Below, one piece after another: positions 23,730 to 60,543 of a stretch of DNA of 64,000 bases. How positions within the stretch are numbered: position 1 is the stretch's first letter; each line of letters begins with the position of its first letter. The notes below the pieces were generated by a model that was given only the letters and a program-made list of their open reading frames with translations, did not search any database and was not told the DNA's origin. Source of the stretch: Devosia sp. (GTDB lineage: Bacteria > Pseudomonadota > Alphaproteobacteria > Rhizobiales > Devosiaceae). The stretch covers positions 1-64,000 of the forward strand of contig NZ_JAQGJV010000010.1 in the NCBI RefSeq assembly GCF_028290435.1. Reading direction: 5' to 3'. The position numbers and the translations under genes are program-made.

Positions 23730-23750
23730 CCCTCCCCGCAAGGGGGAGGG
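23730..23750. terminator. G/C hairpin downstream of guaB
   Basis: CCCTCCCC-GCAAG-GGGGAGGG, 30 bp past the guaB stop. It is preceded by CCCCCACCCTTGATCC, wording shared with the repeat between the CUT1 binding-protein and permease genes at 46.0 kb. It has no T-run in either direction, so it may act by RNA stabilisation rather than as a classic terminator. Confidence 0.5.
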
Positions 23751-37514: not shown

Positions 37515-37622
37515 GCTCCCAAAATCTCTGGTCGTCCCCTGACCACTCCCATATGGTGCCAAGCGGAAAAAGAAAACCAGTGGCAGGCTTTGCACCGCGC
37601 CGCTCGCAGGGGACAGCACCAA

Positions 37623-38561
37623 ATGACGCTTCACAACCGGGCCATTCGCGCCCTTCTCGCTGGCACCACCTTGGCTGCCCTCGCGCTGACCGCTTCTAGC
37701 GCCATGGCGGCGTCCAAGATTGCCGTGATCACGCCCTATCTGGCGCAGCCGGGGACGCAGTTTTACGTCGAGGCCTTCCAGGCCGCGGCGAAGGGCAAGG
37801 ATTGGGACGTCAACGTCATCGACACCGCCGGCGACGTCGCCGCCGTGATCAGCCGTATCGAAGACATGGTCAACCAGAACGTCGACGCCATCGTCATCAA
37901 TGTCGATCCGACCCAGGTCACCGCCGGCCTGCAAGCCGCCAAGGATGCCGGTATTCCGGTGATCGGCATGGATGCCGGCGCCGATCCGCTGCTGGTCACC
38001 AACGTCACCTCAAACGGCTATGCCATGGCCGCCGAAACCGCGACCTATGTGGCAGACCGCATCCATGGCGCCGGCAATGTGGTGATGTTCGTGTTCGAGG
38101 CCTTCCCGCCGGTGCAGGTTCGTGGCGTGGTGGCCGATGCCGTGTTCGGCAATTTCCCCGACATCAAGATACTCGATCACGTGACTCCCGACGTTTCGGA
38201 CGGCGGCATTGCCGACTCGCGCGCCAAGATGGAAGCCATCCTCGCCGCCAATCCGGAGCCCGGCAGCATCAAGGCCGTATGGGCCGCCTGGGACCAGCCG
38301 GCGCTAGGCGCGTTGCAGGCCATCGAAGCGGCGGGGCGCCAGAATGAAGGCATCGTCATCACCGGCATCGACGCCAATCCGCAGGCCCGCGAAGCCATCG
38401 CCACCGGCGGCAATTTCGAGGCCACCGTGGCGCAGGATTTCAAGGGTATCGGCACCACCACTGCCGACGTGGTCACGCGCGTTCTGGCCGCCGAAGACAT
38501 CAAGCAGGGTTCGATCTATGTGCCGACCCAGTTGATCACCGCCTCCAACGCGGCTGAATAA
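37623..38561 (+). CDS. sugar ABC transporter substrate-binding protein (CUT2/RbsB type)
   Basis: 312 aa from MTLHNRAIRALLAGTT. A Sec signal peptide ends near AMA-ASK (about residue 27-28). The mature Peripla_BP_4 fold starts KIAVITPYLAQPGTQFYVEAF and has the usual second-lobe pattern AVWAAWDQPALGALQAIEAAG and IVITGIDANPQAREAIATGG. It captures a monosaccharide or small polyol for the ATPase and permease that follow. It is separated from the ATPase gene by 210 bp with two hairpins, which probably lets the binding protein be made in excess. Confidence 0.92.
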   Translation: MTLHNRAIRALLAGTTLAALALTASSAMAASKIAVITPYLAQPGTQFYVEAFQAAAKGKDWDVNVIDTAGDVAAVISRIEDMVNQNVDAIVINVDPTQVTAGLQAAKDAGIPVIGMDAGADPLLVTNVTSNGYAMAAETATYVADRIHGAGNVVMFVFEAFPPVQVRGVVADAVFGNFPDIKILDHVTPDVSDGGIADSRAKMEAILAANPEPGSIKAVWAAWDQPALGALQAIEAAGRQNEGIVITGIDANPQAREAIATGGNFEATVAQDFKGIGTTTADVVTRVLAAEDIKQGSIYVPTQLITASNAAE

Positions 38562-38600
38562 GGCCGGTTCGGCGCTGCTACCATCCCACACTCGGCGTCA

Positions 38601-38727
38601 CCCCGGCGAAGGCCGGGGCCCATCCCGAGATCGCTTCACACGCCGCCAGACCGCGCCGACAGCACGACCACCTTGCGGCCGCTCTCATATATCGGGATGT
38701 CATACCGGCCTTCGCCGGTATGACATC
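38601..38727 (+). repeat. two hairpins between the CUT2 binding-protein and ATPase genes
   Basis: First: CCCCGGC-GAAG-GCCGGGG (38601-38618), embedded in GTCACCCCGGCGAAGGCCGG wording typical of dispersed repeats. Second: a perfect 14 bp stem (38696-38709 and 38714-38727, GATGTCATACCGGC) with loop CTTC. Neither is followed by a long T-run, so partial termination or 3' end protection of the upstream message is more likely than full termination. Confidence 0.75.
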
Positions 38728-38771
38728 GCGTTTGGAAAGAGCCCCGCGCGTACTCGAATTTGCAAACAGCC

Positions 38772-40274
38772 ATGACCCTGCTTTCCCTCAAAGATGTGAC
38801 CAAGGCCTATGGCGGCGTGCCGGCGCTCAAGGGCGTCGATCTCTCCGTCGCGCCGGGGGAAATTCATGCACTGATGGGCGAGAACGGCGCCGGGAAATCC
38901 ACGCTGATCAAGATACTCGCGGGTGTGGTGGCGCCCGACCACGCCGATATCCAGCTCGATGGCCAGCCGGTGGAGATCGGCAGTCCGCGACAAGCCCATA
39001 GCCTCGGCTTCCGCTTCATCCACCAGGAATTCAACGTCGTCCCGGCGCTGTCGGTGGCCGAAAACATCTTCATGGGCCGCCAATATCCCAAGCGTGGCGG
39101 CCTATTCGTGGATTGGCGCAAGCTGAACCAGGCCGCGCGCGACACCCTGCAAAAGCTGGGCATTTCCCATATCGATCCAGCCCGCCCGCTGGGTAGCCTA
39201 TCGCTCGGCGATCAGATGTTGGTCCGGATTTCCAGCGCCTTCATCGGCGATGACGGTGCCCCAGCGCGGCTCTACGTGCTGGACGAGCCAACCGCCGCCC
39301 TCAGCCGTGGCGAGTCCGAACGCCTGTTCACCGTGCTGCGCGAATTGCGGGCCATCGGGGCTTCGGTGCTCTACGTGTCCCATCGGCTCGATGAGGTGAT
39401 GGCCATCTGCGACATGGCAACTGTGGTGCGCGATGGCCGCAGCATCGACACCGGCAAGATCGCGGACATTACCCATGACGACCTGGTGACCCTGATGATC
39501 GGTCGGCGCGTCGAGGAAGCCTATCCCCCGGCCATCGCCGCCCCTCGCGGCGAAACCGTGCTGGCGGCGCAAGAATTAGGCATTCGCGGCGGCCGCAACG
39601 TCTCGTTCCAGGTCCGCGCCGGCGAAGTGCTGGGCATTGCAGGCATCGCCAATGCCGGTCAGCGCAATCTGCTGCGCACGCTGTTTGGCGACCTGGCCGC
39701 CACAGGTGGCAGCATGGTGCTCGCCGGCCAGGCCTATCGCCCCCGTAGCCCGGCCGATGCCTGGCGCGCGGGCATTGGCTACATTCCGCGCGAGCGGCGC
39801 TCGGAGGGTCTAGTGCTGTCGCGGCCGATCTTCGAGAACACCACCCTGCCCCATCTCGCCGCGCAAAGCCGCTGGCGCATCTGGCTGACGCCCCGCCGCG
39901 AAAAGCGCGTGACCAGCCAACAGGGCGAACTGGTTCGCCTCAAGGCGTCCGGTCCCGGGCAGCGGGTGCGCGAACTCAGCGGCGGCAACCAGCAAAAGGT
40001 GGTGTTCGCCAAAGCCCTGCTGGGCAAGCCGCGTCTCTTGCTGCTGGACGAGCCCACTCGGGGGGTCGATGTCGGCGCCAAGTTCGATATCTATTCGATC
40101 ATCCGCGACATGGCGGCGGGCGGCATGGGCGTGGTGCTGGTGTCGTCCGACCTGCCCGAACTCATCGGCATGGCCGACCGCATCGCCGTGATGCGCGATG
40201 GCGCTATCACCGATATCGTCGCTGCGGCCGGACTCAACGAAGAACGCCTGCTCAACCTCTGCTACGGGCGCTGA
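38772..40274 (+). CDS. sugar ABC transporter ATP-binding protein (CUT2/RbsA type)
   Basis: 500 aa with two fused ATPase domains. The first has Walker A GENGAGKST and Walker B YVLDEPTAAL, with signature region LGSLSLGDQML. The second domain lacks a canonical Walker A (GIANAGQRN, as is usual in RbsA) but keeps the signature ELSGGNQQKVVFAKAL and Walker B LLLLDEPTRGVDVGA. The ATG at 38772 is preferred to a TTG at 38760. It powers the import of the sugar delivered by the upstream binding protein. Confidence 0.92.
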   Translation: MTLLSLKDVTKAYGGVPALKGVDLSVAPGEIHALMGENGAGKSTLIKILAGVVAPDHADIQLDGQPVEIGSPRQAHSLGFRFIHQEFNVVPALSVAENIFMGRQYPKRGGLFVDWRKLNQAARDTLQKLGISHIDPARPLGSLSLGDQMLVRISSAFIGDDGAPARLYVLDEPTAALSRGESERLFTVLRELRAIGASVLYVSHRLDEVMAICDMATVVRDGRSIDTGKIADITHDDLVTLMIGRRVEEAYPPAIAAPRGETVLAAQELGIRGGRNVSFQVRAGEVLGIAGIANAGQRNLLRTLFGDLAATGGSMVLAGQAYRPRSPADAWRAGIGYIPRERRSEGLVLSRPIFENTTLPHLAAQSRWRIWLTPRREKRVTSQQGELVRLKASGPGQRVRELSGGNQQKVVFAKALLGKPRLLLLDEPTRGVDVGAKFDIYSIIRDMAAGGMGVVLVSSDLPELIGMADRIAVMRDGAITDIVAAAGLNEERLLNLCYGR

Positions 40275-40285
40275 TAGGAAAACGA

Positions 40286-41248
40286 ATGCTGACGGTTTTG
40301 CGACGTTACGGCACCCTGATCGGCTTTGCCGCCATCCTGATCTTCTTCTGGATCAGCCTGCCCGACACGTTCATGACGGCCCGCAACTGGCTCAACATTT
40401 CCCAGCAGATGTCCATGCTGATCGTCGCCGCCGCCGGCATGACCATTGTCATGGTGATGGGCGATTTCGATCTCAGCATCGGCTCGATGGCAAGCCTGGC
40501 CGGCATCGTCGCGGCAATTCTCTTCAGCTTCGATTATCCGATCTGGGCCGCCGTCTCGATCGCGTTGATCGTCGGTTTGGCCGGGGGCGCGGTGAACGGG
40601 CTGCTGATCAGTTTCGTCGGCATCCTGCCCTTTGTCGCCACGCTGGCAACGCTCACCATGCTGTCCGGCGCCGCGTTCGTGGTCAGCGGCGGCAAGACAA
40701 TTTCGGGGCGCGTGATCCCCGAGGCTTTCGGCAACTTCGCCCGCGAAGGCATCTCGTTGGGCAATTGGGGTGGGGTCGCCGTCAGCCTGCCCAATCTCAC
40801 CATCGTGGCGTTGATCGTCGCCGTTCTGGTGTGGGTGCTACTGGAACAGACCACGTTTGGCCGCCGCCTTTACGCCATCGGCGGCAATAGCGAGGCGGCT
40901 CATCTGAGTGGCGTCGCCGTGCGCAAGCTCAAGCTGATCGCCTTCGCTCTAACCGGGGGAAGCGCCGCGCTGGCCGGCGTGATGTATGCCAGCCGCGTGG
41001 CATCAGCCAACCCGACCCAGGGGAGCGGGCTGATGCTCAATGCCATCGCCGCCGTGTTCCTTGGTTCTACGCTCAGCGAACACGGCGAACCGCGACTGCT
41101 TTACTCGATCGTTGGTGTGTTGGTGCTGGGCGTACTCGACAACGGCCTGACCCAGATGAGCGTCGACAGCAATGTTCGCCAAATCCTTGTGGGCGGCATC
41201 ATCATCCTTGCCGTGTCGACCAGTTCCTATACGCGGCGCCTGCGCTAG
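40286..41248 (+). CDS. sugar ABC transporter permease (CUT2/RbsC type)
   Basis: 320 aa integral membrane protein with about ten helices. The family pattern includes MIVAAAGMTIVMVMGDFDLSIGSMASLAGI-like wording early, TFGRRLYAIGGNSEAAHLSGV in the cytoplasmic coupling region and LNAIAAVFLGSTL late. It starts 11 bp after the ATPase stop, completing the importer. Its last 47 bp overlap the convergent SGNH hydrolase gene. Confidence 0.92.
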   Translation: MLTVLRRYGTLIGFAAILIFFWISLPDTFMTARNWLNISQQMSMLIVAAAGMTIVMVMGDFDLSIGSMASLAGIVAAILFSFDYPIWAAVSIALIVGLAGGAVNGLLISFVGILPFVATLATLTMLSGAAFVVSGGKTISGRVIPEAFGNFAREGISLGNWGGVAVSLPNLTIVALIVAVLVWVLLEQTTFGRRLYAIGGNSEAAHLSGVAVRKLKLIAFALTGGSAALAGVMYASRVASANPTQGSGLMLNAIAAVFLGSTLSEHGEPRLLYSIVGVLVLGVLDNGLTQMSVDSNVRQILVGGIIILAVSTSSYTRRLR

Positions 41249-41906
41249 GGACCGCGGCAGACACAAACGCCCCCGCTATGACCCAGTGACCCTCATCGTT
41301 GGGATGCGTGACATCGTCTGAGCTGAGCGCACCGTCCGGGTAGCGGGACATCGCCTCGTAGACGGGCGCGTAATGGACTGAAAATTCACTGGCCAGCGCC
41401 ATCACGATTTCAACATAGAGTTCAAACCCTGCCCTCGTTTGCCCAGCAAAACCTGGGCTGCCGATGGCGAAGCCGCGATCGGAGGGAAACGGCGGACTGC
41501 CGATGGCGATCAGATTGGGTTCGAAGCCACCCTCCAGCAGCCCGTCAAGCATGAGGGCATAGTCACGCCGAAAGCGCTCAGCATTGAGGCTCTCGGGAGC
41601 GCCGACATACCGGGCATCGTTATAGCCATAAAGGATAGCCAGCGCGTCGGCCCGATCGGGCCCGAGCAGTGCCTCGCGATAGCGGCCAATGCCGTTGTCA
41701 GGCCGGTGCAGACCGTCGGCCATCATGCCGCCTTGCAGGATCGTGCCGGAAACGGCGCGGTTGCGCACAACCTCAACATTCGTGGCGTCCGCCAGTTGCA
41801 GCGGCCAGGCCTTCTGCGGCGCCGAAGCGTTCAGGCCAACCGTTATGCTGTCTCCGAACACCGCCAGAGACTGAACTCCGGCTCCCCGCAGTGCTTCCGC
41901 AAACAT
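41202..41906 (-). CDS. SGNH/GDSL hydrolase family protein
   Basis: 234 aa. Block I is SLAVFGDSITVGL (catalytic Ser in GDS), block III is LYGYNDARYVG (GxND, with Tyr in place of the second Gly/Ser) and block V is SSDDVTHPNDEGHWVIA (DxxH, the catalytic Asp/His). No signal peptide is evident, so it is cytoplasmic. It probably removes acyl groups such as acetyl from sugars brought in by the neighbouring importers; that use is inference. It is divergent from lacI with the double operator between, so likely controlled by it. Confidence 0.85.
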   Translation of the reverse strand: MFAEALRGAGVQSLAVFGDSITVGLNASAPQKAWPLQLADATNVEVVRNRAVSGTILQGGMMADGLHRPDNGIGRYREALLGPDRADALAILYGYNDARYVGAPESLNAERFRRDYALMLDGLLEGGFEPNLIAIGSPPFPSDRGFAIGSPGFAGQTRAGFELYVEIVMALASEFSVHYAPVYEAMSRYPDGALSSDDVTHPNDEGHWVIAGAFVSAAVPSAGAAYRNWSTRQG

Positions 41907-41955
41907 CAAAATCCTACCTCCGAATCCAGCTTGACAGCCAGAGCCTCAATCCTGT

Positions 41956-41986
41956 TAATACGCATTAGCTGCTAATACGCATTAGC
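41956..41986. promoter_or_regulatory. double LacI-type operator
   Basis: TAATACGCATTAGC occurs twice as a direct repeat (41956-41969 and 41973-41986), 17 bp centre to centre. Each copy is itself near-palindromic around a central CG, as LacI-family operators are; the second extends to CTGCTAATACGCATTAGCAG with one mismatched pair. It lies 28 bp before the lacI start and about 50 bp before the divergent SGNH hydrolase gene. Autoregulation and control of both units are inferred. Confidence 0.75.
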
Positions 41987-42013: not shown

Positions 42014-43057
42014 TTGGCCGCGACCAAACGCCTGACCCAGCGCGACATTGCCCGCCTTGCCGGCGTCAGCCAGGCAACGGTTTCGCTCGTGCTCAATGGT
42101 GCGGTCAGCGCCGAGGGCCGCATCCCCCAGGAAACCCGCGAACGGGTGAACAAGGCGATCCGCGAAACCGGCTATGTCGCCGATCCCGTCGCCCGCCGCA
42201 TGGCCAAGGGCCTCAACCGCATTCTGGGCGTCTTCACCTACGAGCCCGCCTTCCCCTCCGCCCAAGCCGACTTTTTCACGCCATTCCTGCTCGGTATCGA
42301 GGAGGCTGCTCAGGAACTCGGCTATGACCTGCTGCTGCTGACCGGTGCCGCCGCTGGCGCCCAGCGCAAAATTTTTGGCAACAATACCCGCCTGCGCCTC
42401 GCCGATGGTTGCCTCGTCCTCGGCCGGCAATTCGATCGCGATGAACTCACGCGACTGGTGGCCGGGGACTACCCGTTTGTCGCCGTCGGCCGCCGCGATG
42501 ACGCTGGTGGGCCCGTGCCCTATGTGGGTGGCGACTACGCCTCGGGCACTGCCGCCCTGGTCGACCGCGTCCGCGCCTTAGGCCATACGCGCATCGCCTA
42601 TGTCGGCCCCGCCAGCGGCGCCGAATCCACCTTTGACCGCTGGGCTGGCTTCTCCGGCGCCATTGCGGGCCTGCACCTCGTCGCGCACATGCCCGACGTT
42701 GCGCAACCCGCCAACGAAACCCTCGACGGCCTTGTCGCTAGCGGCGCCACCGCCGTGTTCTTCATCGAACTGGCCGATGCCATCCAGGTGGAGACCTTGG
42801 CCCGCCAGCGCGGCATTGCGGTGCCAGAACAGCTCTCCATCGTCGTGCTCGGCAACCACATTCGCGCCGAACAGACCGGCCGCCGCTTCACCTCGTTCTC
42901 GATCCCGCGCGAGGCCATGGCCCGCGCCGCCACGCAAATGCTGGTGCGCCGTGTCGAGCACGATGAACCCATCCAGCAGATCCTGCTGCCTTGCGAACCG
43001 CTCGAGGGCGACACCCTCGGCCCTGCCCCTTTGACCAAGCCTAAGACCGGACCATGA
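42014..43057 (+). CDS. LacI-family transcriptional regulator
   Basis: 347 aa from a TTG start. The N-terminal helix-turn-helix TQRDIARLAGVSQATVSLVLNG and hinge (VADPVARRMAKGL) are classic LacI. The ligand domain begins ILGVFTYEPAFPSAQADFFTPFLLGIEEAAQELGYDLLLLT and resembles a periplasmic sugar-binding fold. The stop overlaps the following FAD oxidoreductase start by 4 bp (ATGA), so regulator and catabolic genes are one operon. Its likely operator is the doubled site just upstream. Confidence 0.92.
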   Translation: MAATKRLTQRDIARLAGVSQATVSLVLNGAVSAEGRIPQETRERVNKAIRETGYVADPVARRMAKGLNRILGVFTYEPAFPSAQADFFTPFLLGIEEAAQELGYDLLLLTGAAAGAQRKIFGNNTRLRLADGCLVLGRQFDRDELTRLVAGDYPFVAVGRRDDAGGPVPYVGGDYASGTAALVDRVRALGHTRIAYVGPASGAESTFDRWAGFSGAIAGLHLVAHMPDVAQPANETLDGLVASGATAVFFIELADAIQVETLARQRGIAVPEQLSIVVLGNHIRAEQTGRRFTSFSIPREAMARAATQMLVRRVEHDEPIQQILLPCEPLEGDTLGPAPLTKPKTGP

Positions 43058-44670
43058 CCATAAAAGAACTCAGCGCAGATATTCTCGTCGTCGGTGGCGG
43101 CCTCGGCGGCGTCGCCGCAGCCCTTGGCGCCCTGCGCAACGGCCGCAGCGTCATCATGAGCGAGGAATTCGACTGGCTCGGCGGCCAGCTCACCAGCCAG
43201 GCCGTACCGCCCGATGAGCACTCCTGGGTCGAGCAGTTCGGCGTCACCCGCTCCTATCGCCAACTCCGCAATGGCATCCGCCAATATTACCGCGACCATT
43301 ATCCGCTGACCGCCGCCAGCCGCGCCTGGGGCGATCTCAATCCGGGCGCCGGCTTTGTCAGCCGCCTCTGCGCCGAGCCGCGCGTCGGCGTCGCCGTCAT
43401 CAACGCCATGCTGATGCCCTATATCGGCGGCGGCAAGCTGCGCCTGCTCCAGCCTTACCGCCCTGTCGCGGCCGACGTGGCCGGCGACACCGTCCGCTCG
43501 ATCACCCTGCGCCATCGCGACACCGGCGCCGAAGTCACCGTCTCCGCGCCCTACATCATCGACGCCACCGAACTCGGCGACCTGCTGCCGATGACCGGCA
43601 CCGAATATGTCACCGGCTTCGAAAGCCGCCACGATACCGGCGAGCCCAGCGCGCCCGACGTGGCACAGCCCGATAACGTCCAGGCTGTCTCGGTGTGCTT
43701 TGCCATCGATCACGTCGATGGTGACCAGACCATCGACAAGCCGGCCAACTATGATTTCTGGCGCAAGTATCAGCCCAGCTTCTGGGGCGGTCCGTTGCTC
43801 GGCTTCAAGGCGCCGCATCCGCGTACGCTCGAAATCACCGAGCGCTCCTTCACGCCCAATCCCAATGACGATCCGCTGCTGGTCGATGCCGACCAACGTC
43901 GTAATCCCGGCGACGGTAATCTGTGGACTTTCCGCCGCATCGCAGCGCAGCGCAATTTCGTGCCCGGCGCCTATGGCTCGGACATCTGCCTCGTGAACTG
44001 GCCGATGATCGACTACATGGAAGCCTCGATCATCGACGTTTCCGAGGACGAAAAGGCCCGCCACCTCAAGGCCGCCGCCGACCTGTCCTATTCGGTGTTC
44101 TACTGGCTGCAGACCGAGGCCCCCCGCGTGGATGGCGGCCAGGGTTTCCGCGGCCTGCGCCTGCGTGGTGATGTCACCGGCACCGATCATGGCCTGGCCA
44201 TGGCGCCCTATATCCGCGAAAGCCGCCGCATCAAGGCGATAACGACCATCGTCGAGCAGGATGTGTCGATGGCCATCCACGGCAATGCGCTGTCCAAACA
44301 GTATCGCGACAGCATCGGCGTCGGCATGTATCGCATCGACCTGCATCCCTCGACCGGCGGCGACAACTATGTCGACGTGGAGTCCGCCCCGTTCGAAATT
44401 CCGCTCGGCGCGCTCTTGCCGCAGCGGGTGAAAAACCTGCTGCCGGCCGGCAAGAACATCGGCACCACCCACATCACCAATGGCTGCTACCGGCTGCATC
44501 CGGTGGAGTGGAATGTCGGCGAAGTCGCCGGCCTGCTCGCCGCGCATTGTCTCAATAATGGGCTCACACCGCATCAGGTGCAGGAAAACGACGCCCAACT
44601 TTCCGACTTCCAGACCCGGCTGCATGGCGAGGGGATCGAAATCCGCTGGCCGGACGTGCGCGGCTATTAA
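43054..44670 (+). CDS. FAD-dependent oxidoreductase (FAD_oxidored family)
   Basis: 538 aa. The N-terminal dinucleotide-binding motif is DILVVGGGLGGVAAALGALRNG (about 9-30), then WLGGQLTSQAVPPDEH and a second FAD-contact region YIIDATELGDLLP. The late part has LLPAGKNIGTTHITNGCYRLHPVEWNVGEVAG, typical of the PF12831 family found in glycan-use loci. No signal peptide is seen, so it is cytoplasmic. It probably oxidises or dehydrates a sugar brought in by the CUT1 importer encoded downstream. The chemistry is not established for this family, so the substrate is open. Confidence 0.85.
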   Translation: MTIKELSADILVVGGGLGGVAAALGALRNGRSVIMSEEFDWLGGQLTSQAVPPDEHSWVEQFGVTRSYRQLRNGIRQYYRDHYPLTAASRAWGDLNPGAGFVSRLCAEPRVGVAVINAMLMPYIGGGKLRLLQPYRPVAADVAGDTVRSITLRHRDTGAEVTVSAPYIIDATELGDLLPMTGTEYVTGFESRHDTGEPSAPDVAQPDNVQAVSVCFAIDHVDGDQTIDKPANYDFWRKYQPSFWGGPLLGFKAPHPRTLEITERSFTPNPNDDPLLVDADQRRNPGDGNLWTFRRIAAQRNFVPGAYGSDICLVNWPMIDYMEASIIDVSEDEKARHLKAAADLSYSVFYWLQTEAPRVDGGQGFRGLRLRGDVTGTDHGLAMAPYIRESRRIKAITTIVEQDVSMAIHGNALSKQYRDSIGVGMYRIDLHPSTGGDNYVDVESAPFEIPLGALLPQRVKNLLPAGKNIGTTHITNGCYRLHPVEWNVGEVAGLLAAHCLNNGLTPHQVQENDAQLSDFQTRLHGEGIEIRWPDVRGY

Positions 44671-44700
44671 TCGACCAAGAAAAGACAACAGGAGGAATAA

Positions 44701-45972
44701 TTGTCAAAGCTAACGTCACTCAAATCCGCCGCCGCCATGGCCGGCATTCTCGTGCCGCTCGCCTGGAGCGGCACCACCTGGGCGCAGGACGCGATCAACC
44801 TGCGCATGACCACCTGGAGCGCCAATGAGGCGCATCTGGCCATGCTCAACGAGATCGCCGCCGGCTTCAAGGAAACCCATCCCAACGTCACCGTGACCTT
44901 CGAGCCGCTGCCGTTCGAAAGCTACACCACGACGTTGACCACGCAGATCGCCGGTGGCAATCCGCCGGACCTGGCCTGGATTCTGGAAGCCACCGCCGCC
45001 GATTTCGTCAATTCGGGCGCCCTGGCGCCGCTGACCGATGCCTTCACCAAGACCGAAGGCTATGACATGGCCGACGTCACTCAGCAGGCGACTGCGCTGT
45101 GGACCAAGGATGGCCAGCTTTACGCCTATCCCTTCTCCACCTCGCCCTTTGCGCTCTTCGTCAACAACGACGTCATCAAGGCCGCTGGCGCCAAGACCCC
45201 GGCCGAGCTGATCGCCGCCGATCAGTGGACCTGGGACAATGCCTTCACAACCGCGTCGACGGTCGGAAAATCGGGCAAGACCGGCCTCGTGCTGCGCGAT
45301 TTCAAATATCAGGTCTGGCAGAACATGGCCTCGATCTGGGACGCGTGGGGCGCGACGCCCTGGAGCGCCGATGGCAAGACCTGCACCTTCGCCGATCCCG
45401 CCATGGTCGACGCCATGACCGCCATCCACAAGGCCATCTTCACCGACAAGGCCATGCCTGGCCCGGGCGAGGACATCGACTTCTTCGCCGGCGACACCGC
45501 CATGACCATCACCCAGATTTCCCGCGCCTCCCTGCTGCCTAAGGAAAACGCGTTCGATTGGGACCTTGTGCCGCTGCCCAAGGGCCCGGCCGGTGATTAT
45601 GCCGTGGTCGGCCAGGCTGGCGTTGGCGCCTTTGCCGCCGGCAAGAATGCCGAAACCGCCGTCGCCTTCCTCGCCTACATGACCAACCCGGCCAACAGCC
45701 AGAAGCTCGCCCAGTTCTTCCCGCCCGCCCGCGCGAGCCTCCTGAACTCGACGACCCTGGCCGCCACCAATAAGCTGCTCTCGGCCGACCAGATCGAAAA
45801 CGTCGTCATCAAGGGCATAGCCACCGGCAAGGTTCTCCCCGGCCACACCAACTTCGCCCAGATCCAGCAGACGGTTCGCGCCGGGCTTGACGCGCTGTGG
45901 GTGCCGGATGCGGATGTGCCGGCGGTGCTGAAGTCGGTGTGCGACAGCGTCACGCCGATGTTGGCGATGTAA
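44701..45972 (+). CDS. sugar ABC transporter substrate-binding protein (CUT1, SBP_bac_1)
   Basis: 423 aa from a TTG with a strong AGGAGG site 5 bp upstream. The signal peptide (KSAAAMAGILVPLAWSGTTWAQ) is probably cut near TWA-QD. The mature part has the extracellular solute-binding family 1 pattern (INLRMTTWSANEAHLAMLNEIAAGFKETHPNVTVTFEPL; TTQIAGGNPPDLAWI). It delivers an oligosaccharide or glycoside to the two permeases downstream. The next gene is separated by 131 bp containing a long inverted repeat. Confidence 0.92.
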   Translation: MSKLTSLKSAAAMAGILVPLAWSGTTWAQDAINLRMTTWSANEAHLAMLNEIAAGFKETHPNVTVTFEPLPFESYTTTLTTQIAGGNPPDLAWILEATAADFVNSGALAPLTDAFTKTEGYDMADVTQQATALWTKDGQLYAYPFSTSPFALFVNNDVIKAAGAKTPAELIAADQWTWDNAFTTASTVGKSGKTGLVLRDFKYQVWQNMASIWDAWGATPWSADGKTCTFADPAMVDAMTAIHKAIFTDKAMPGPGEDIDFFAGDTAMTITQISRASLLPKENAFDWDLVPLPKGPAGDYAVVGQAGVGAFAAGKNAETAVAFLAYMTNPANSQKLAQFFPPARASLLNSTTLAATNKLLSADQIENVVIKGIATGKVLPGHTNFAQIQQTVRAGLDALWVPDADVPAVLKSVCDSVTPMLAM

Positions 45973-45998
45973 TCTGCGGCCTGAACTAACAGTCGTCG

Positions 45999-46090
45999 CC
46001 CTCCCCCTTGTGGGGAGGATCAAGGGTGGGGGTCCTTCGGCTTCGTCGCCAAGAACACCCCCACCCCGGCCCTCCCCACAAGGGGGAGGG
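45999..46090 (+). repeat. 20 bp perfect inverted repeat between CUT1 binding-protein and permease genes
   Basis: The 20 bp left arm at 45999-46018 (CCCTCCCCCTTGTGGGGAGG) and its exact complement at 46071-46090 flank 52 bp. The inner ATCAAGGGTGGGGGT (reverse ACCCCCACCCTTGAT) also occurs near 23715-23729. It is a dispersed intergenic repeat that would fold in the mRNA and could raise the level of the binding-protein message over the permeases. Confidence 0.8.
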
Positions 46091-46103
46091 AGAAGGAAGA
46101 GTA

Positions 46104-47012
46104 ATGACAACCCCACCGCGACCTCATCCGTTCTGGACCATCGAACGCCGCGATGCCGTGGCGGGCTACACGTTCATCGCCCCGCAGCTCATCGGCACCA
46201 TCGTCTTCGTCCTCATCCCGCTTGGCCTCGTGTTCTGGTATTCGCTCCACGAGTGGAACGTCCTCGCCAATACCTTCACCTTCAAGGGCGCCGCCAACTA
46301 CCAGCACCTGCTGAACGATCCTGCCCTGCCCCAGGTCCTCGTCGCTTCAGCCATTTTCTCGGCCTGCCTCGTCGTGCTCAACATGACGCTGGCGATCCTA
46401 CTCGCCGTGCTGCTGGATCAAAAACTGCGCGGCATCACCGTGTTCCGCACGCTGTTCTTCTCGCCTGTCGTGGTTTCGCTGGTCGCCTGGACCATCGTCT
46501 GGGGCTTCCTGTTGCAGAACAATGGCGGCATCAACGGCTTCCTCCAGATGTTCGGCATTACCGGCCCCAACTGGCTGCGCAACTCGACCACCGCGATGAT
46601 TTCCGTGGTCGTCGTCCAGGTGTTCAAGAATGTCGGGCTCAACATGATCCTGTTCCTCGCCGCGCTGCAGGGCGTGCCCAAGGAGCTCTATGAGGCCGCC
46701 CGCGTCGACGGCGCCTCGCCGTTCAAGCAGTTCCGCCGCATCACGCTGCCGATGATTTCGCCGACGATCCTGCTCACCTCGATCATCACCATTGTCGGCT
46801 CGCTGCAGGTCTTCGCGCAGATCGCCGTGCTGACCCAGGGCGGCCCCGGCTTCTCTACGACCGTGCTGGTCTACTACCTCTACCAGCAGGCCTTCCAGTT
46901 CCACTTCTTCGGGTATGGCTCGACCCTGTCGATCCTGCTGTTCGTCATTGTGGCCATTCTCACCTTTGCCCAGTGGCAGTTGCGCAAGCGGATCGTGTTC
47001 TATGAAAACTGA
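46104..47012 (+). CDS. sugar ABC transporter permease, CUT1 (UgpA/MalF type)
   Basis: 302 aa from MTTPPRPHPFWTIERRDAVAG, chosen because upstream in-frame codons fall in the repeat; GAAGGAAGA serves as ribosome site. It has six membrane helices, and the EAA-type coupling loop is PKELYEAARVDGASPFKQFRRITLPMISPTI. It forms a heterodimeric channel with the following permease, whose start lies inside its last codons (11 bp overlap). Confidence 0.92.
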   Translation: MTTPPRPHPFWTIERRDAVAGYTFIAPQLIGTIVFVLIPLGLVFWYSLHEWNVLANTFTFKGAANYQHLLNDPALPQVLVASAIFSACLVVLNMTLAILLAVLLDQKLRGITVFRTLFFSPVVVSLVAWTIVWGFLLQNNGGINGFLQMFGITGPNWLRNSTTAMISVVVVQVFKNVGLNMILFLAALQGVPKELYEAARVDGASPFKQFRRITLPMISPTILLTSIITIVGSLQVFAQIAVLTQGGPGFSTTVLVYYLYQQAFQFHFFGYGSTLSILLFVIVAILTFAQWQLRKRIVFYEN

Positions 47013-47844
47013 TCTCTCGCCCACCATCAAAACCGCGCTCTATGGGCTGATGTGCGTGCTGCTCATCCCGTTCGTGTTCCCGACATGGTGGATGATCACC
47101 TCGTCGGTGAAGCCTATCAGCGACATCTTCGCCTTCCCGCCGGACCTGTGGCCGCGCCGCTTCGATTTCACCACCTATGGCAAGGTGTTCGAGCTGCAGC
47201 CCTTCGCGCAGCAATACTGGAACTCGGCCTATATCGCCGCCATCGTCACCGTGGGCACCATGGCGTTCTCGTCGATGGCCGGCTATGCCTTCGCCCGCAT
47301 CAAGTTCCCCGGCGCCGATTTCCTCTTCACCATCGTGCTGCTGGGGCTGCTGATCCCGTCCGAAGTCACCATCGTGCCCCTGTTCCAGATCTTCCTCAAA
47401 TGGGGGATGATCAACACGCATTGGCCGCTGATCCTGGTGCCCATCTTTGGCGCGCCCTCGGTGTTCGCCACCTTCGTCATGCGCCAGTTCTTCATCGCCC
47501 TGCCTGGCGAATTGGAGGAAGCCGCCCGCGTCGATGGCCTTGGTCGTTTCAAGATCTTCTGGATCATCGCGCTGCCGCTGGCCAAGCCCGCACTCGGCGC
47601 CGTGGCGATCTTCACGTTCCTGCATAGCTGGAACCTCTATCTCGAACCCATCGTCTTCATCTCGGCGAAAAACATGTTCACCCTGCCCCAGGCGCTGACC
47701 CAGTTCACCGACGCGTACGGCGGCGCCATGTGGAACATCCAGATGGCCGCCGCAACCATGACCGCGCTGCCGGTGCTGCTGGTCTTCATAGTCGCCCAGA
47801 AGCAGTTCGTCGAAGGCCTCGCCCATACCGGCCTCAAAGGCTAA
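47002..47844 (+). CDS. sugar ABC transporter permease, CUT1 (UgpE/MalG type)
   Basis: 280 aa from MKTDLSPTIKTALYGLM; an open frame starting at 46915 belongs to the previous gene. It has six membrane helices, with the coupling loop LPGELEEAARVDGLGRFKIFWIIALPLAKPAL. It is the second half of the transmembrane pair and is translationally coupled to the first by an 11 bp overlap. Confidence 0.92.
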   Translation: MKTDLSPTIKTALYGLMCVLLIPFVFPTWWMITSSVKPISDIFAFPPDLWPRRFDFTTYGKVFELQPFAQQYWNSAYIAAIVTVGTMAFSSMAGYAFARIKFPGADFLFTIVLLGLLIPSEVTIVPLFQIFLKWGMINTHWPLILVPIFGAPSVFATFVMRQFFIALPGELEEAARVDGLGRFKIFWIIALPLAKPALGAVAIFTFLHSWNLYLEPIVFISAKNMFTLPQALTQFTDAYGGAMWNIQMAAATMTALPVLLVFIVAQKQFVEGLAHTGLKG

Positions 47845-47854
47845 GGACTAAAAA

Positions 47855-48898
47855 ATGGCTCCCGTTACCCTCCGCGCCGTCAAGAAAAGCTATGGCGATG
47901 CCCCCGTCATCCACGGCGTCGATATCGACATTGCCGATGGCGAATTCGTCGTTCTGGTCGGCCCATCCGGCTGCGGCAAGTCCACTTTGCTCCGCATGGT
48001 CGCTGGCCTCGAAACCATCACCGATGGTGAGGTCTCCATCGGGCCTCGCGTGGTCAACGACCTCGATCCCAAGGACCGGGACATCGCCATGGTGTTCCAG
48101 AATTATGCGCTCTACCCGCATATGACTGTCGAAACCAATATGGGCTTTTCGCTCGAACACCGCGGCGCCAGCAAAGCCGAAATCGCCGAGCGCGTGAACT
48201 GGGCAGCCGATATCCTCGGCCTCGTGCCCCTGCTCAAGCGCTACCCGCGCCAGCTCTCCGGCGGCCAGCGCCAGCGCGTCGCCATGGGCCGTGCCATCGT
48301 GCGCAATCCACAGGTCTTCCTGTTCGACGAGCCGCTCAGCAACCTCGATGCTAAGTTGCGCGTCGTCATGCGGGGCGAGATCAAGAGCTTGCACCAGCGG
48401 CTGGGCGTTACCACTATCTACGTCACGCATGATCAGGTCGAAGCTATGACGATGGCCGACAAGATCGTGGTGCTCAATGCCGGCAAGGTCGAGCAGATCG
48501 GCGCGCCGCTCGATCTCTACGACCGCCCAGTCAACCAGTTCGTCGCCGGCTTCATCGGCTCCCCCTCGATGAATTTCATCGGTGGCAAGATCACCGCGGA
48601 TGGCTTCGCTGCCGCCGGCATTGTTTTGCCCCTGCCGCCTGGCCTCGCAATCGGCGACGCCGTCTACGGCATCCGCCCCGAACATTTCGAACTCTCGCCC
48701 GCCGGGGTCGCCGCCACGGTCCTGCTGGTCGAGCCGATGGGCTCGGAAACCCAGGTCACCATGACGTTGGGCGAACACCAAGTCATCGGCGTGTTCCGCG
48801 AGCGCGTCAAAGCCAAGCCCGGAGAAACCATCATGGTCCGTCCCGATCCGGCCAGTGTCCACCTGTTCGACGCCACCACCGGCGCGCGGATCAACTGA
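47855..48898 (+). CDS. sugar ABC transporter ATP-binding protein, CUT1 (UgpC/MalK type)
   Basis: 347 aa. Walker [11 protein letters not shown]-loop [12 protein letters not shown], signature [17 protein letters not shown], Walker [17 protein letters not shown] and switch His in [16 protein letters not shown]-terminal OB-fold regulatory domain (about 235-347) is typical of the MalK group. It powers the CUT1 importer. Its stop overlaps the next start by one base (TGATG), tying the unknown TIM-barrel gene to the transporter operon. Confidence 0.93.
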
Positions 48899-49584
48899 TG
48901 CCCACCTATCTCGAAACCCCGCTCTACCGCGCCATTACAACGGGCCAGTTTCCGGTGATCGTATCGCTACCGCGCCACGACCTCGCTTTGGCGCAGGCCG
49001 CACTCGACGGCGGCGCTACCGCCATAAAGGTCCACCTCAACGCCTATCATCGCGCCTCCGGAACTACCTTCGGCAGCTTCACGGAGGAACGGCCGTTCCT
49101 CGAATCCCTCGCCAAGCTCGGCGCGCCGATGCTGGTGATGGCAGGCCAGGAAACGGTGCCGACCCTTGCCGAAATGGACGCCCTTGCCGATCTCGGCTTC
49201 GAAGGGTTCAACGTCTACATCGATCACTTGAAACCGCACCTGCTGCAGTCGCGGTTACGCCCAATGCCGGCCCTTTCCGCCACCAGCACCGATGCTGACA
49301 TCGCCCGCCTTGCCGCCATTCCCGGTGCGATGATCGAAGCCTCCATCATGGACTTCGCCGGCTACGGCACGCCGCTGACCGCGGCCGATCTGGCTCGCTA
49401 TGCCCACATCACGGCGCTTGCCGGCGTGCCGGTCATCGCCCCAAGCCAGAAGAAATTCACCCCCACCGACATGCCCGCCCTCCGCGCCGCCGGGATCGCC
49501 GCGCCGCTGCTTGGCGTCATCGTCACCGGGGCGACGCCTGCGAGTATGCGAGCATCCGTCGCCGCCATAACAGCCGCTCGGTAG
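48898..49584 (+). CDS. uncharacterised TIM-barrel protein
   Basis: 228 aa; I do not recognise a named family. The sequence has an alternating beta-alpha pattern: FPVIVSLPRHDLALAQAALDGGATAIKVHLNAYHRA, then PMLVMAGQE, FEGFNVYIDH, GAMIEASIMDF and GVPVIAPSQKKFT, ending in GVIVTGATP. This looks like a small phosphate-binding TIM barrel of the NanE/ThiG/KDPG aldolase sort, with candidate active residues K44, H46, H110, E147 and K185/K186. It is translationally coupled to the CUT1 ATPase gene. A role as aldolase or epimerase for the product of the FAD oxidoreductase is a guess. Confidence 0.6.
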   Translation: MPTYLETPLYRAITTGQFPVIVSLPRHDLALAQAALDGGATAIKVHLNAYHRASGTTFGSFTEERPFLESLAKLGAPMLVMAGQETVPTLAEMDALADLGFEGFNVYIDHLKPHLLQSRLRPMPALSATSTDADIARLAAIPGAMIEASIMDFAGYGTPLTAADLARYAHITALAGVPVIAPSQKKFTPTDMPALRAAGIAAPLLGVIVTGATPASMRASVAAITAAR

Positions 49585-49600
49585 CAACGGCAGTCATCCC

Positions 49601-50605
49601 TCACAACGCGATCGACTTCGGGAGAGCGTCGGCGACCGGCCCGGCCGAGGCACGGATAACCAGGTGCCCCGAGAACAGCAGGCGCAGGGGGATTTCGGGG
49701 GACATGCGTTCATTGATGCGGTCATCCAGAACACGCACCAGGCCGGCGCCGATCTCGCGCCCCTGCACTTTAACCGTGGTCAGCTGGGGCGATATCTGGG
49801 TTGCGGCAGAGTAATCGCCAAATCCGATGACCGACGCATCCTCGGGGATTTTATACCCCAGCCGGAGCAGTTCGGAAACGACGGTCAGCGCCATGCCGTC
49901 GTGGGCGCAAAAGAAGGCCGTCGGGAAAAACCCGTCGGCATGGGCCGCTTGCAGATGCTCGGTGAAGCGCATCTCGGCCTGGAACTTCATCTCGCGAAAG
50001 CTGACATCATCGTATCGTTCGAACACCTCGCGCACACCGTAAAAGCGCTCGACACGACCGCGATAGCCGGGCGTGCCGTGGACGTAGGCGATGGTGCGGT
50101 GCCCCAGTTCGAGCAGGTAATTGGCGACGGCCGAGCCGCCCTCATGGTCAGTGCCGGAGACAATATCGAACGGATCGAAGGGATCCATCCAACCATTGCG
50201 CACGACGTGCACACCCAAATCGCGAATGCGCTGCATGGTCGACATAGGGTGCGGGCCAACCAGAGCGACGCCGGAGCAGCCGCGCGCGAATGCCTCGATT
50301 TCCTGCGGCAGATGCGTCCAGCACATGCGCACCTGATAGCCACAGCGCTGCGCTTGCGCCTGAAAGCCGCTCTGGATCAGCAGATGAAGTTCGGAATTGA
50401 TGAGGTCGGTATCGTGGAACACCACGCCAAGCACCGTCTCCTCAACCTCGACGACCGCGCGGGTGTATCCCAGCTCAGCGGCGACCTGTTGCACGCGAAG
50501 ACGCGTCTCGTCGCTGACGCCATCCTTGCCGGACAGGGATCTGGACACGGCGAACTTCGATAGGCCGGTCATTTCGGCGATTGTCGACAACGTGACGCGT
50601 GCCAT
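49601..50605 (-). CDS. LacI-family transcriptional regulator
   Basis: 334 aa from MARVTLSTIAEMTGLSKFAVSRSLSGKDGVS, with a GGGGAG site upstream. The helix-turn-helix and hinge (RLRVQQVAAELGY) are typical LacI, and the sensor domain has GVVFHDTDLINSELHLLIQSGF and GFFPTAFFCAHDGMALTVVSELLRLG. It is divergent from the Dpp-type importer and glycosidase operon, so that operon is its likely target. It ends 16 bp from the convergent TIM-barrel gene. Confidence 0.9.
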   Translation of the reverse strand: MARVTLSTIAEMTGLSKFAVSRSLSGKDGVSDETRLRVQQVAAELGYTRAVVEVEETVLGVVFHDTDLINSELHLLIQSGFQAQAQRCGYQVRMCWTHLPQEIEAFARGCSGVALVGPHPMSTMQRIRDLGVHVVRNGWMDPFDPFDIVSGTDHEGGSAVANYLLELGHRTIAYVHGTPGYRGRVERFYGVREVFERYDDVSFREMKFQAEMRFTEHLQAAHADGFFPTAFFCAHDGMALTVVSELLRLGYKIPEDASVIGFGDYSAATQISPQLTTVKVQGREIGAGLVRVLDDRINERMSPEIPLRLLFSGHLVIRASAGPVADALPKSIAL

Positions 50606-50770
50606 TGGAGCTCCCCACCGATACCCACCATTTCGGGCGACGTCCGGCAATAGCTCACTCTATCCCCAGAATGACATCAATTTCAACATAACGCTTTACC
50701 TAACAAAATTACGGCCGCAGGCTCACCATCGCTAACAACGTCCATAGGCGGTTAGCCAGGAGGAGATCAA

Positions 50771-52693
50771 ATGGTAAGCATCAGCCGTCGGGCTTTTATC
50801 GTCGCGAGTTCCGCTTTTGCCGGAGCATTGGCCGTACCAAGCTGGGTTCGGGCTCAGGAATCAGCTTTTCTAAAGGCCCAGGTCGATGCCGGCACATTGC
50901 CAGCGGTCGCCGAGCGCCTGCCCGCCAATCCACTGGTCATCACGCCGTTCGAACGGACCGGCCAGCAGGGTGGTGACTGGAACCATGCCCTGGTCGGTGG
51001 CGGTTCGCTGTCGATGCTGGTGCGCTACCAGGGCTATGAGCCTCTGGTCCGTTTCAACCCGGATTGGTCGGGCCTCGTCGAAAACACGGCCGAGTCATGG
51101 TTGGTCAATCCCGAGGCGACCGAATACACCTTTACCCTGCGCAAGGGCCACAAATGGTCGGACGGCGTGCCCTTCACCACCGCCGATATCCAGTTCTGGT
51201 ACGAGGCCTATTTCACTGACGCGGAAGCCAGCCTCGGTGGCAATTCCTGGTGGTCTGTCGATGGCGAGGTGGCCAAGCTCGAAGTGGTGGACGAGCAGAC
51301 CTTCAAGGTCATCTTCCCCGGCCCCAACGGCCTTTTCGTGCAGCAGCTCGCCTGGGCCCAGCAGGACCAGATGACGCGCACGCCCAAGCATTACCTCGAA
51401 CAATTCCACATCAAGTACAATCCGGACGCAGATACGCTGGCCAAAGCGCAGGGGCTGGAGAGCTGGATCGCCCTGTTCCAGCGCGAGATCGGCATGCTGG
51501 ACGACAATACGTTCTATCAGAACGGCAAGCGGCCGACGCTAAACGCCTGGGTGTTCACCGATGGCGCTCCCGGCGAAAATACCGAACGTGCTGTCGCCAC
51601 CCGCAATCCGTATTATTTCAAGGTCGACGACAAGGGCACGCAACTGCCCTACTTCGACCGCGTCGTCTATCAGATGGTCGCCGATCCCGAAGTGCTGCTG
51701 CTCAAGACGCTGCAGGGCGAAATCGACATCATGGACCAGTACATCTGCACCCCGGCCAACAAGCCGGTGCTGTTCGATGGGCAGGAAAGCGGCGGCTACG
51801 GTTTCTATACGCTCAAGGAAACCGCGGCCAATGTCATGGCCTTCCAGCTCAATCTCAACCATCTCGACCCGGTCAAGAACAAGCTGTTCAACACCATCGA
51901 ATTCCGCCAGGCACTGTCCCATGCGATCGACCGGCAGGCGCTGATCGACGCCGTGTTCGTCGGCCAGGGTGCCCCTGCCCAGCCTTCGATGCGCGAAGGC
52001 GATCCGCTCTACAACGAGCAGTTGGCTAAGCAGTTCATCGAGTTCGATGTGGCCAAGGCCAACGCACTTCTCGATGCGCTCATCCCCACCAAGGATGGCG
52101 AGGGCTATCGCCAGGATGAACAAGGCCGGCGCGTCTCGATCATTTTCGAGATCGACCAGACCCGCACGACCTTCCTCGACATGTTCGAGCTGGCTATTCC
52201 GATGTTCCAGGCGGTCGGCATTGATGCGCAGATGCGCACCATGGACCGCTCGCTCTGGGAAGAACGGGTGCGCCGTGGCCGCGAATACGATGCCACCGCA
52301 CACCAGTTCGGCGCCAATTCGGGCATTGCCGCAATGCTCGACGCCCGCTTTTACGTCCCGATCAACAATAACTGCTTCTACGCTCCAGGCTGGTCGCTCT
52401 ACTTCACCCAGCCCGACAATGAAGCGGCCGTTGAGCCACCCGCTGCGGTCAAGGCCCAGCAGGACCTGTATCGCACGCTGGTTGGCACAGCTGATCCGGT
52501 CAAGCAGACCGAATTGATGGCCCAGGTGCTGCAGGGCGCAGCCGATTTGTTCCTCACCTTTGGCGTCAGCCTGCCGGCCGATGGCTATGGGGTCGTCAAG
52601 AACGACGTCGTCAACCTGCTCGACAGCATGCCCAACTCGTTCGGCTGGCCCACGCCCGGGCCGGCGCGTCCGGAGCAGTTCTTCAAGGCCTAA
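50771..52693 (+). CDS. ABC transporter substrate-binding protein, family 5 (oligopeptide/oligosaccharide type)
   Basis: 640 aa. The N-terminus MVSISRRAFIVASSAFAGALAVPSWVRAQ carries a twin-arginine motif (S-R-R-A-F-I), so export is probably through Tat. The mature SBP_bac_5 fold includes YEPLVRFNPDWSGLVENTAESW and GHKWSDGVPFTTADIQFWYEAY. The family is best known for peptides, but many members in glycosidase loci bind oligosaccharides, which the neighbours suggest here. An AGGAGGAG ribosome site precedes the ATG. Confidence 0.9.
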   Translation: MVSISRRAFIVASSAFAGALAVPSWVRAQESAFLKAQVDAGTLPAVAERLPANPLVITPFERTGQQGGDWNHALVGGGSLSMLVRYQGYEPLVRFNPDWSGLVENTAESWLVNPEATEYTFTLRKGHKWSDGVPFTTADIQFWYEAYFTDAEASLGGNSWWSVDGEVAKLEVVDEQTFKVIFPGPNGLFVQQLAWAQQDQMTRTPKHYLEQFHIKYNPDADTLAKAQGLESWIALFQREIGMLDDNTFYQNGKRPTLNAWVFTDGAPGENTERAVATRNPYYFKVDDKGTQLPYFDRVVYQMVADPEVLLLKTLQGEIDIMDQYICTPANKPVLFDGQESGGYGFYTLKETAANVMAFQLNLNHLDPVKNKLFNTIEFRQALSHAIDRQALIDAVFVGQGAPAQPSMREGDPLYNEQLAKQFIEFDVAKANALLDALIPTKDGEGYRQDEQGRRVSIIFEIDQTRTTFLDMFELAIPMFQAVGIDAQMRTMDRSLWEERVRRGREYDATAHQFGANSGIAAMLDARFYVPINNNCFYAPGWSLYFTQPDNEAAVEPPAAVKAQQDLYRTLVGTADPVKQTELMAQVLQGAADLFLTFGVSLPADGYGVVKNDVVNLLDSMPNSFGWPTPGPARPEQFFKA

Positions 52694-52771
52694 GGCCCAC
52701 ACCGCAACAACTGACCTGCGCCGGTCCCTCGTGGACCGGCGACGGCACAATCATACCCAATGGAACCCGTG

Positions 52772-54880: not shown

Positions 54881-54891
54881 GCGGAACCGCC

Positions 54892-57050: not shown

Positions 57051-57054
57051 CGCC

Positions 57055-58794
<1,740 letters not shown>

Positions 58795-58805
58795 AGGATC
58801 GTTCC

Positions 58806-59582: not shown

Positions 59583-59591
59583 GGAGCGTCC

Positions 59592-60467: not shown

Positions 60468-60543
60468 ACCAGCCCCTCTCTCATCCCATTTTTGCAACGG
60501 CGCCTTGGCGCCGCGCGCTATCCCATTGCTTAAGGAACGCAAA

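Follow-up and report, generated by a model that had tools for sequence, protein, structure and literature searches.

The operon and its components

The 64,000-nucleotide stretch of a Devosia sp. contig considered here (the window) carries, at positions 42014–49584, seven genes that are read in the same (+) direction and encode a LacI-family regulator, a flavin adenine dinucleotide (FAD)-dependent oxidoreductase, a CUT1 sugar importer and a small TIM-barrel protein. The idea that this operon represents a mobile, single-enzyme, flavin-dependent sugar module is well supported, and comparison among loci supports the notion that the FAD enzyme is its core, the TIM barrel and an acyl-esterase (of the SGNH or AXE1 type) being optional companions. 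An earlier, sequence-only reading of this DNA, which delimited the operon by the same coordinates, spoke of eight coupled genes; seven of them are indeed co-directional within that range, and the eighth lies outside it. This is the divergent gene of an SGNH (GDSL-type) hydrolase (41202–41909, − strand; PF13472, E 6e-17), a probable cytoplasmic acyl-esterase for which comparison with the PDB gives a weak match to acyl-CoA thioesterase I alone (E 0.0017).

The lacI gene (42014–43057, +; PF00356 and PF13377), the product of which is a predicted local repressor, overlaps by 4 bases the gene of the FAD enzyme (43054–44670, +), a cytoplasmic protein in which no signal peptide was seen in a check by eye. 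These are followed by the genes of the solute-binding protein (SBP; 44701–45972, +; PF13416/PF01547), of permease 1 (46104–47012, +) and permease 2 (47002–47844, +), both PF00528, of a UgpC/MalK-type ATPase (47855–48898, +; NF008653 at 499 bits, cut-off 432) and of the TIM barrel (48898–49584, +; 228 residues), the start of which overlaps the stop of the ATPase gene by 1 base. The starts of the permeases were taken from comparison with a relative (L016), their longest open reading frames beginning earlier, at 46008 and 46915, respectively. Since the genes overlap or are separated by short gaps, with the exception of the 131 bases that follow the SBP gene, a single transcript fits this arrangement.

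The components of a CUT1 importer are all present: an SBP of the SBP_bac family, two BPD permeases and a MalK/UgpC ATPase with TOBE. The nearest solved relative of the SBP is GacH, an acarbose/maltose-binding protein (E 2.4e-18), and its named nearest relatives also include an arabino-oligosaccharide-binding protein. The sequence-only reading held that the operon includes no kinase or known glycosidase, and the Pfam search bears this out, as no such family was matched among the operon proteins.

The FAD enzyme belongs to PF12831 (FAD_oxidored), which it matches over its whole length (residues 9–522; 339.6 bits, cut-off 27), while its matches in the PDB sequence search are almost confined to the N-terminal dinucleotide-binding part. 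Searches of Pfam, NCBIfam and PDB sequences found no close characterised homologue of either the FAD enzyme or the TIM barrel through which they could be assigned to a known pathway, as the earlier proposal of an undescribed pathway had anticipated. Its further statement that the route was not a recognisable one holds in a single sense, namely that no paper giving the FAD enzyme a function turned up in the open-access literature searched. In the relevant part of a Brucella flavoproteome table, PF12831 appears as a stretch of sarcosine oxidase; an “FAD-dependent oxidoreductase” mentioned in a passage of a paper on a Rhodothermus GH3 enzyme was set aside, its context being unrelated.

Conservation of the core and its companions

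A total of 92 FAD loci were examined and, after removal of four duplicates, 88 distinct loci were compared, a set that is biased because many of its members were fetched through the TIM barrel. Partners were scored in a comparison of our own that used a single query for each type, and types other than these are uncounted. The regulator, the SBP and both permeases are encoded on the strand of the FAD gene in 77 of these 88 loci; the full core is lacking in the other 11 at the thresholds used, D. aetherius (L121) being counted among them with an annotated LacI that falls below threshold. The copies in Parabacteroides and Rhodococcus and those of L063 and L064, described below, also belong to these 11. 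Twenty-five of the 88 have the core without TIM, AXE1, SIS, DHDPS, NanE or SGNH. Among these core-only loci, two (L060 and L061) adjoin an AGE epimerase, which makes AGE a partner in 2/88, L060 also having a GH38 mannosidase, and a PfkB gene lies near a third (L116).

The most frequent companion in this set is the TIM barrel (41/88, plus one Deinococcus version). In 22 loci the FAD gene has an SGNH relative no more than 9.5 kb away, an AXE1 acetyl-esterase occurs in five, and the two were never found at one locus. The suggestion that the substrate is possibly acylated gains from this repeated presence of an acyl-esterase. Two SGNH extractions with an internal stop, from L024 and L032, were set aside. 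Less common partners are NanE (6/88), a DHDPS-family lyase (2/88; L059 and L117) and SIS, named by eye, together with PfkB (1/88; G325). NanE, AGE, SIS and perhaps the TIM barrel itself represent isomerases or epimerases among the partners. A Gfo/Idh pair of the types found in L059 is near three of the 88, and a third Gfo/Idh type is near L104, L120, L124 and L159.

Some Devosia genomes (L068, from G005; G340 and L017, perhaps one genome; G360) have a short or a split FAD gene, which may reflect decay of the module or assembly errors; the partial sequences (L017 and the split or short copies in G340, G005, G360 and G384) were kept as fragments.

In keeping with a portable module, plasmids also carry relatives of the FAD enzyme, with 44–83% identity: 37 records out of 72,556 have one, and their hosts belong to the Alphaproteobacteria, Actinomycetota, Deinococcota, Bacteroidota and Bacillota. 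The copy from Parabacteroides is the sole enzyme next to SusC/SusD and has an N-terminus that, judged by its motif, resembles that of a Tat lipoprotein. Secreted-looking proteins with no family matches or weak ones are encoded beside four Streptomyces copies (L126, L129, L131 and L132). Two of them, on two Streptomyces plasmids, are proteins of about 800 residues with a Tat-like start, encoded divergently from lacI-FAD (L126:5322-7697 and L131:4303-6708); neither has a Pfam or NCBIfam match, and the one from L126 matches PDB 5jvk (E 1e-6). The third (L129:4633-6234) is a Tat-like protein with a weak match to propeller repeats, divergent across an operator-like site, and in its C-terminal part a resemblance to a xanthan-binding module (E 3.2e-5) is accompanied by one to a xanthan lyase domain (E 0.004).

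Linkage between the FAD enzyme and the TIM barrel

Among 136 Devosiaceae genomes, the FAD enzyme is present in 55 (E <= 1e-60) and the TIM barrel in 36 (E <= 1e-3), and all 36 genomes that carry the TIM barrel also carry the FAD enzyme (Fisher 2.7e-19, with descent ignored). The co-occurrence of the two families, chosen beforehand as the point on which the proposal of a shared pathway could be refuted, was thereby borne out. The TIM barrel is nevertheless missing from 19 of the 55 FAD-bearing genomes, which speaks against it being a needed step; the earlier idea of the TIM barrel as the second step of the pathway has to be given up in its obligatory form. The same nesting is seen in other sets of genomes: in the order (297 genomes) all 4 genomes with TIM are inside the 12 with the FAD enzyme, and in the family of G328 (199 genomes) both genomes with TIM are inside the 7 with the FAD enzyme (E <= 1e-200). 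In the class (385 genomes) the FAD enzyme was found in 2 at E <= 1e-100, the genome of the window included.

The order of the genes is also maintained. Of 27 loci fetched by TIM, 25 have the order lacI, FAD gene, SBP gene, two permease genes, ATPase gene and TIM gene, the ATPase gene being absent from L036 and L039 and the FAD gene of L017 being partly in frame; the remaining two (L037 and L040) are contig ends in which TIM alone of the gene set is seen. This order is far from chance. The TIM barrel is present in 8 of the 72,556 plasmid records. In Deinococcus QL22 its gene lies beside the importer and FAD genes, with an operator-like site between it and the SBP gene, from which it diverges. 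In G013 (L117) the FAD enzyme and the TIM barrel are retained together around a Dpp-type importer, which is accompanied by a lyase of the DHDPS family and by two enzymes of the Gfo/Idh type.

A predicted operator that accompanies the module

A tandem palindrome, GCTAATACGYATTAGC, is located upstream of lacI (41954–41986). Copy 1, GTTAATACGCATTAGC (41954–41969), has one mismatch to the consensus, and copy 2, GCTAATACGCATTAGC (41971–41986), is a palindrome with a central CG. The locus has what is expected of a LacI-regulated operon, that is, a LacI gene and a palindromic operator-like site with a central CG at the promoter. The exact GCTAATACGYATTAGC occurs in 94 of 182 loci.

In the genome of the window, sites with <=2 mismatches are found solely before lacI, and at <=3 mismatches there is no excess (16 sites vs 16 for a reversed-pattern control). 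A site with <=1 mismatch is present in 57 of 62 FAD-bearing genomes and, among the matches listed, all such sites lie about 3 kb or less from the FAD gene, on its lacI side; distant regulon members linked by the operator were looked for and none was found among these matches. The five genomes with no <=1-mismatch site are G001, G091, G409, G412 and G850; the last four have 2-mismatch sites in their loci, and G001, which has no lacI, has none below 5. Likewise, no site with <5 mismatches was found near the FAD gene of L104, L123 and L124, which are without this type of lacI. With a local operator and a single-site regulon, a few proteins should suffice to identify both inducer and substrate.

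Operator-like sites also occur outside the Alphaproteobacteria: Nonomuraea has two, with 2 mismatches each, and Streptomyces NBC_01591 and NBC_01237 have sites with 2 and 3 mismatches, in all cases before lacI or the importer; in Deinococcus QL22 a site with 3 mismatches lies in the gap between TIM and the SBP gene. In D. aetherius no site in the gap was found among the best four operator-like matches. As operator-like sites precede lacI or the importer in these distant bacteria, the predicted regulator-operator pair appears to travel with the enzyme and the importer in several lineages. In three phyla, the family of the FAD enzyme comes with an importer of its own, a regulator gene and a comparable operator-like site, and it may be regarded as a recurrent, mobile first step of sugar use that has so far been annotated just as “FAD-dependent oxidoreductase”.

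The fold of the TIM barrel

The TIM protein is 79–84% identical to its relatives in Devosia naphthalenivorans and D. aurantiaca. It was matched by no Pfam or NCBIfam model, and 35 of its relatives give weak, sub-threshold Pfam matches only. Amidohydro_2 (PF04909) is weakly matched by 16 of the 35 and its cut-off is not reached (best 20.8 bits vs 26.4), and AP_endonuc_2, the label of the sugar-phosphate-isomerase type to which the TIM eliminase of the GlycDH/OGE pathway belongs, is touched by one (E 0.22). In the PDB sequence search nothing was significant, the best E values being 0.19 and 0.7.

The AlphaFold2 model of this protein has a mean predicted local distance difference test score (pLDDT) of 95.3 and a predicted template modelling score of 0.92. 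Among the 50 Foldseek matches listed for it, the top ones are RPE, TrpA, HPS and KDPG aldolase, with template modelling (TM) scores of about 0.6–0.7 and identities of 9–18%; examples are RPE 1h1y (E 2.2e-7, TM 0.64) and KDPG aldolase 1vlw (TM 0.67/0.74). Neither NanE nor a barrel of the sugar-phosphate-isomerase type is among these 50, and a viral fold library gave two matches at E <= 0.001.

A Deinococcus relative of 35% identity retains, among other residues, D28, K44, H46, H51, R52, E147-A-S, Q184 and G206-VIVTG. The last motif is conserved in most TIM sequences and is associated in the model with a four-residue helix (207–210); ribulose-phosphate-type barrels bind phosphate at the strand 7–8 loops. 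The ribulose-phosphate-type fold matches, together with this conserved set of residues, suggest a sugar-phosphate-type barrel with a catalytic set of its own, an assignment that concerns the fold predicted by the model and not the reaction.

Proposed function and alternative explanations

Because the set of regulator, enzyme and importer recurs in distant bacteria, it is probable that one dedicated enzyme starts the breakdown of the imported sugar. The reading that we prefer, with a confidence that approaches an even chance, is that the FAD enzyme is the first to attack an oligosaccharide or glycoside that has been imported intact and is probably acylated. Its position as the first step is suggested by the Parabacteroides copy, the sole enzyme at SusC/SusD with its Tat-lipoprotein-like start. 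LacI would bind the local operator until the imported sugar relieves it, and the esterase would strip the acyl groups. By the most likely route, the flavin would abstract a hydride from a ring carbinol to give a keto-glycoside, which would then lose its glycosidic bond by elimination, possibly in a redox-neutral manner on the same FAD enzyme. The TIM barrel, where present, may isomerise, epimerise or hydrate the released sugar, the remainder being left to general metabolism, so that no dedicated kinase or glycosidase would be needed. Oxidation of an imported sugar, a part of the route proposed in the sequence-only reading, is still the leading idea, the evidence being neutral as to an oxidative opening of the ring; the aldol-type follow-up is not indicated by the sequence.

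A more specific version of this proposal, which we regard as doubtful, is that the FAD enzyme would act as a glycosidase in its own right: oxidation, elimination and re-reduction of an imported glycoside would take place on this one flavoprotein with no net redox change, making it an FAD counterpart of the NAD-using enzymes of the GH4 type. In lyase-type glycan regions, of which the xanthan region of P. ilicis is an example, it would stand in for GH88 in removing the (unsaturated) glucuronyl residue, and the TIM barrel would found a new family of sugar isomerases or epimerases.

Several observations weigh against the preferred reading. The operon of the window has no eliminase, hydratase or Gfo/Idh genes, even though the known routes of oxidation, elimination, hydration and reduction use them, and an acyl substrate is assumed from the family membership of the esterase. 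More distant PF12831 relatives, of 46–47% identity, in two genomes of the order (G242 and G327; L063 and L064) have no LacI or CUT1 nearby, and a Rhodococcus relative has an MFS transporter and another FAD enzyme as neighbours, so that the family at large extends beyond glycans. With respect to the regulator-operator pair, the best operator-like site of the alphaproteobacterium Thalassospira has 4 mismatches and is tied elsewhere, and those of Meiothermus and of two other Streptomyces copies have 5, none of them above background. A fragment of the TIM barrel in Deinococcus D7000 has no FAD gene nearby. Finally, the AlphaFold2 model of the FAD enzyme, built with 20 close sequences, has a mean pLDDT of 45.3 and was not used for a fold search.

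The alternative that survives best, unlikely as it seems, is that the FAD enzyme is a plain dehydrogenase of a free sugar or polyol, which converts a hydroxyl to a ketone or lactone with no glycosidic cleavage, and that the TIM barrel isomerises the product after its phosphorylation by a general kinase. CUT1 systems import polyols too, core-only operons would need no further enzyme, the fold of the TIM barrel is like that of phosphate-binding enzymes, and the variant in G325 has PfkB and SIS. This explanation fits poorly with the FAD enzyme as the sole enzyme beside SusC/SusD in Parabacteroides, with the oligosaccharide binders (GacH and the arabino-oligosaccharide-binding protein) among the nearest SBP relatives, and with the acyl-esterase companions.

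An amino-sugar pathway, similar to those of N-acetylmannosamine or nonulosonate, with an amino-sugar glycoside as the substrate of the FAD enzyme and with the TIM barrel as a divergent NanE, is very unlikely. Five of the 47 FAD-bearing Devosiaceae genomes tested have NanE no more than 10 kb from the FAD gene, where even placement predicts 0.31, and these represent about three independent events (eight of the 55 FAD-bearing genomes, G017, G342, G351, G352, G356, G371, G375 and G384, were left out); in addition, NanE, a ROK kinase, the FAD enzyme and AXE1 are grouped in Mesobacillus, and there is a weak similarity between the TIM barrel and NanE. Against this, NanE is common in the Devosiaceae (89/136) and was not found in the genome of the window, catabolic loci cluster anyway, NanE is out of reach at 82 of the 88 FAD loci, and the hhalign comparison of the TIM barrel with one NanE gives a probability of 2%. 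The TIM barrel was also considered as a stand-in for NanE and this was rejected, given that 33 of the 36 Devosiaceae genomes that bear it also carry NanE (the genome of the window being one without it). In one genus, two different NanE-kinase-CUT1 operons border the FAD operon on the same side, that of L106 with GntR and a ROK-type kinase and that of L107 with a BadF-type kinase (both kinases named by eye); NanE is also on that side in L146 and L147.

A route in which the imported sugar derivative is opened by oxidation and the TIM barrel then performs an aldol-type cleavage is just as improbable, for although KDPG aldolases are among the fold matches of the barrel (TM 0.63–0.67 by query) and DHDPS-family lyases occur in two FAD operons (L059 and L117), L117 carries both the lyase and the TIM barrel, which therefore need not be the lyase, many FAD-bearing Devosiaceae genomes lack the barrel, as described above, and, while class I aldolases of this fold have their catalytic lysine on strand 6, the sole invariant lysine according to alignment and model, K44, is on strand 2.

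Other features of the region

The gap between the SBP and permease 1 genes (45973–46103, +) contains a predicted hairpin (dG −83.3 kcal/mol, z −6.95) with arms that are perfect inverted 19-base repeats (46000–46018 and 46071–46089); a third near-copy of the repeat is found at 23731–23749. The hairpin may be likened to a REP-type element, with a possible role in transporter stoichiometry. On the far side of the SGNH gene, a ribose-type ABC importer (SBP, ATPase and permease, named by eye; 37008–41248) ends beside it on the opposite strand. Downstream of the TIM gene there is a second, separate glycan operon (49601–62649), with a LacI (49601–50650, −) and a GHL6/ThuA-like protein (52760–54880), LacI and GHL6 being assigned by Pfam; a peptide-type SBP (50771–52693), permeases, an ATPase, hydroxypyruvate-isomerase-like and 3-hydroxyacid-dehydrogenase-like genes and a large glycosidase-like protein (60505–62649) were named by eye.

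Comparison with known systems

NanE (PF04131) and the TIM barrel are alike in size, in being barrels and, by eye, in the pattern of the strand 7/strand 8 region, and NanE adjoins FAD genes in one genus, one Devosia and Mesobacillus. They differ in that none of the 35 aligned TIM sequences reaches the threshold of the NanE model, a single one giving a weak match (E 0.16). CUT1 sugar operons of the Thu/Ugp/Mal type combine the architecture of this importer with a local regulator. The operon of the window shares the architecture and has a local LacI gene; it differs from them in having a flavoenzyme in place of a glycosidase, phosphorylase or kinase.

A closer parallel is found in A. tumefaciens, in which, according to the relevant sections of the report, the flavoenzyme GlycDH oxidises intact glycosides at C3 and a TIM-barrel enzyme eliminates the aglycone, while hydration by a second TIM-barrel enzyme and reduction by a Gfo enzyme are proposed there on preliminary evidence (PMC10628242). 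The module shares with this GlycDH/OGE/HYD/Gfo operon the combination of a flavoenzyme and a TIM-barrel partner; in the A. tumefaciens system, as there described, oxidation replaces hydrolysis as the first attack (PMC10628242). Gfo/Idh enzymes are found in some variants of the FAD locus, such as L059 and L117. Unlike the A. tumefaciens operon, the window has a single barrel and no Gfo/Idh, its TIM protein folds as a ribulose-phosphate-type barrel and is below threshold for the sugar-phosphate-isomerase families, and the core also occurs with no barrel at all; its flavoenzyme, of PF12831, is set apart from GlycDH by description. By analogy, the module may resemble the A. tumefaciens glycoside pathway in its first step and is not a member of it.

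The other parallel is the xanthan region of Paenarthrobacter ilicis 6C, which in the part of the report that describes it contains, when read backwards, LacI, FAD-dependent oxidoreductase, SBP, permease and permease (PMC12772297), the same gene order as the core in the window, the likeness being one of order alone. Thirteen of the 15 detected proteins of this region were over-abundant on xanthan at an optical density of 1.0, a statement that the passage does not specify for the FAD protein, to which it assigns no role, and the region has no GH88, so that its authors consider that an unidentified enzyme must remove glucuronic acid (PMC12772297). Microbacterium XT11 is also without GH88 and has no FAD counterpart in Table 2 of the same report (PMC12772297), which speaks against a general replacement of GH88 by the FAD enzyme, and the relevant passages of papers on xanthan use by a planctomycete and by Paenibacillus mention no such enzyme. 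The FAD module may bear on the identity of the enzyme that takes off glucuronic acid in xanthan regions devoid of GH88, a question raised in the passages cited (PMC12772297).

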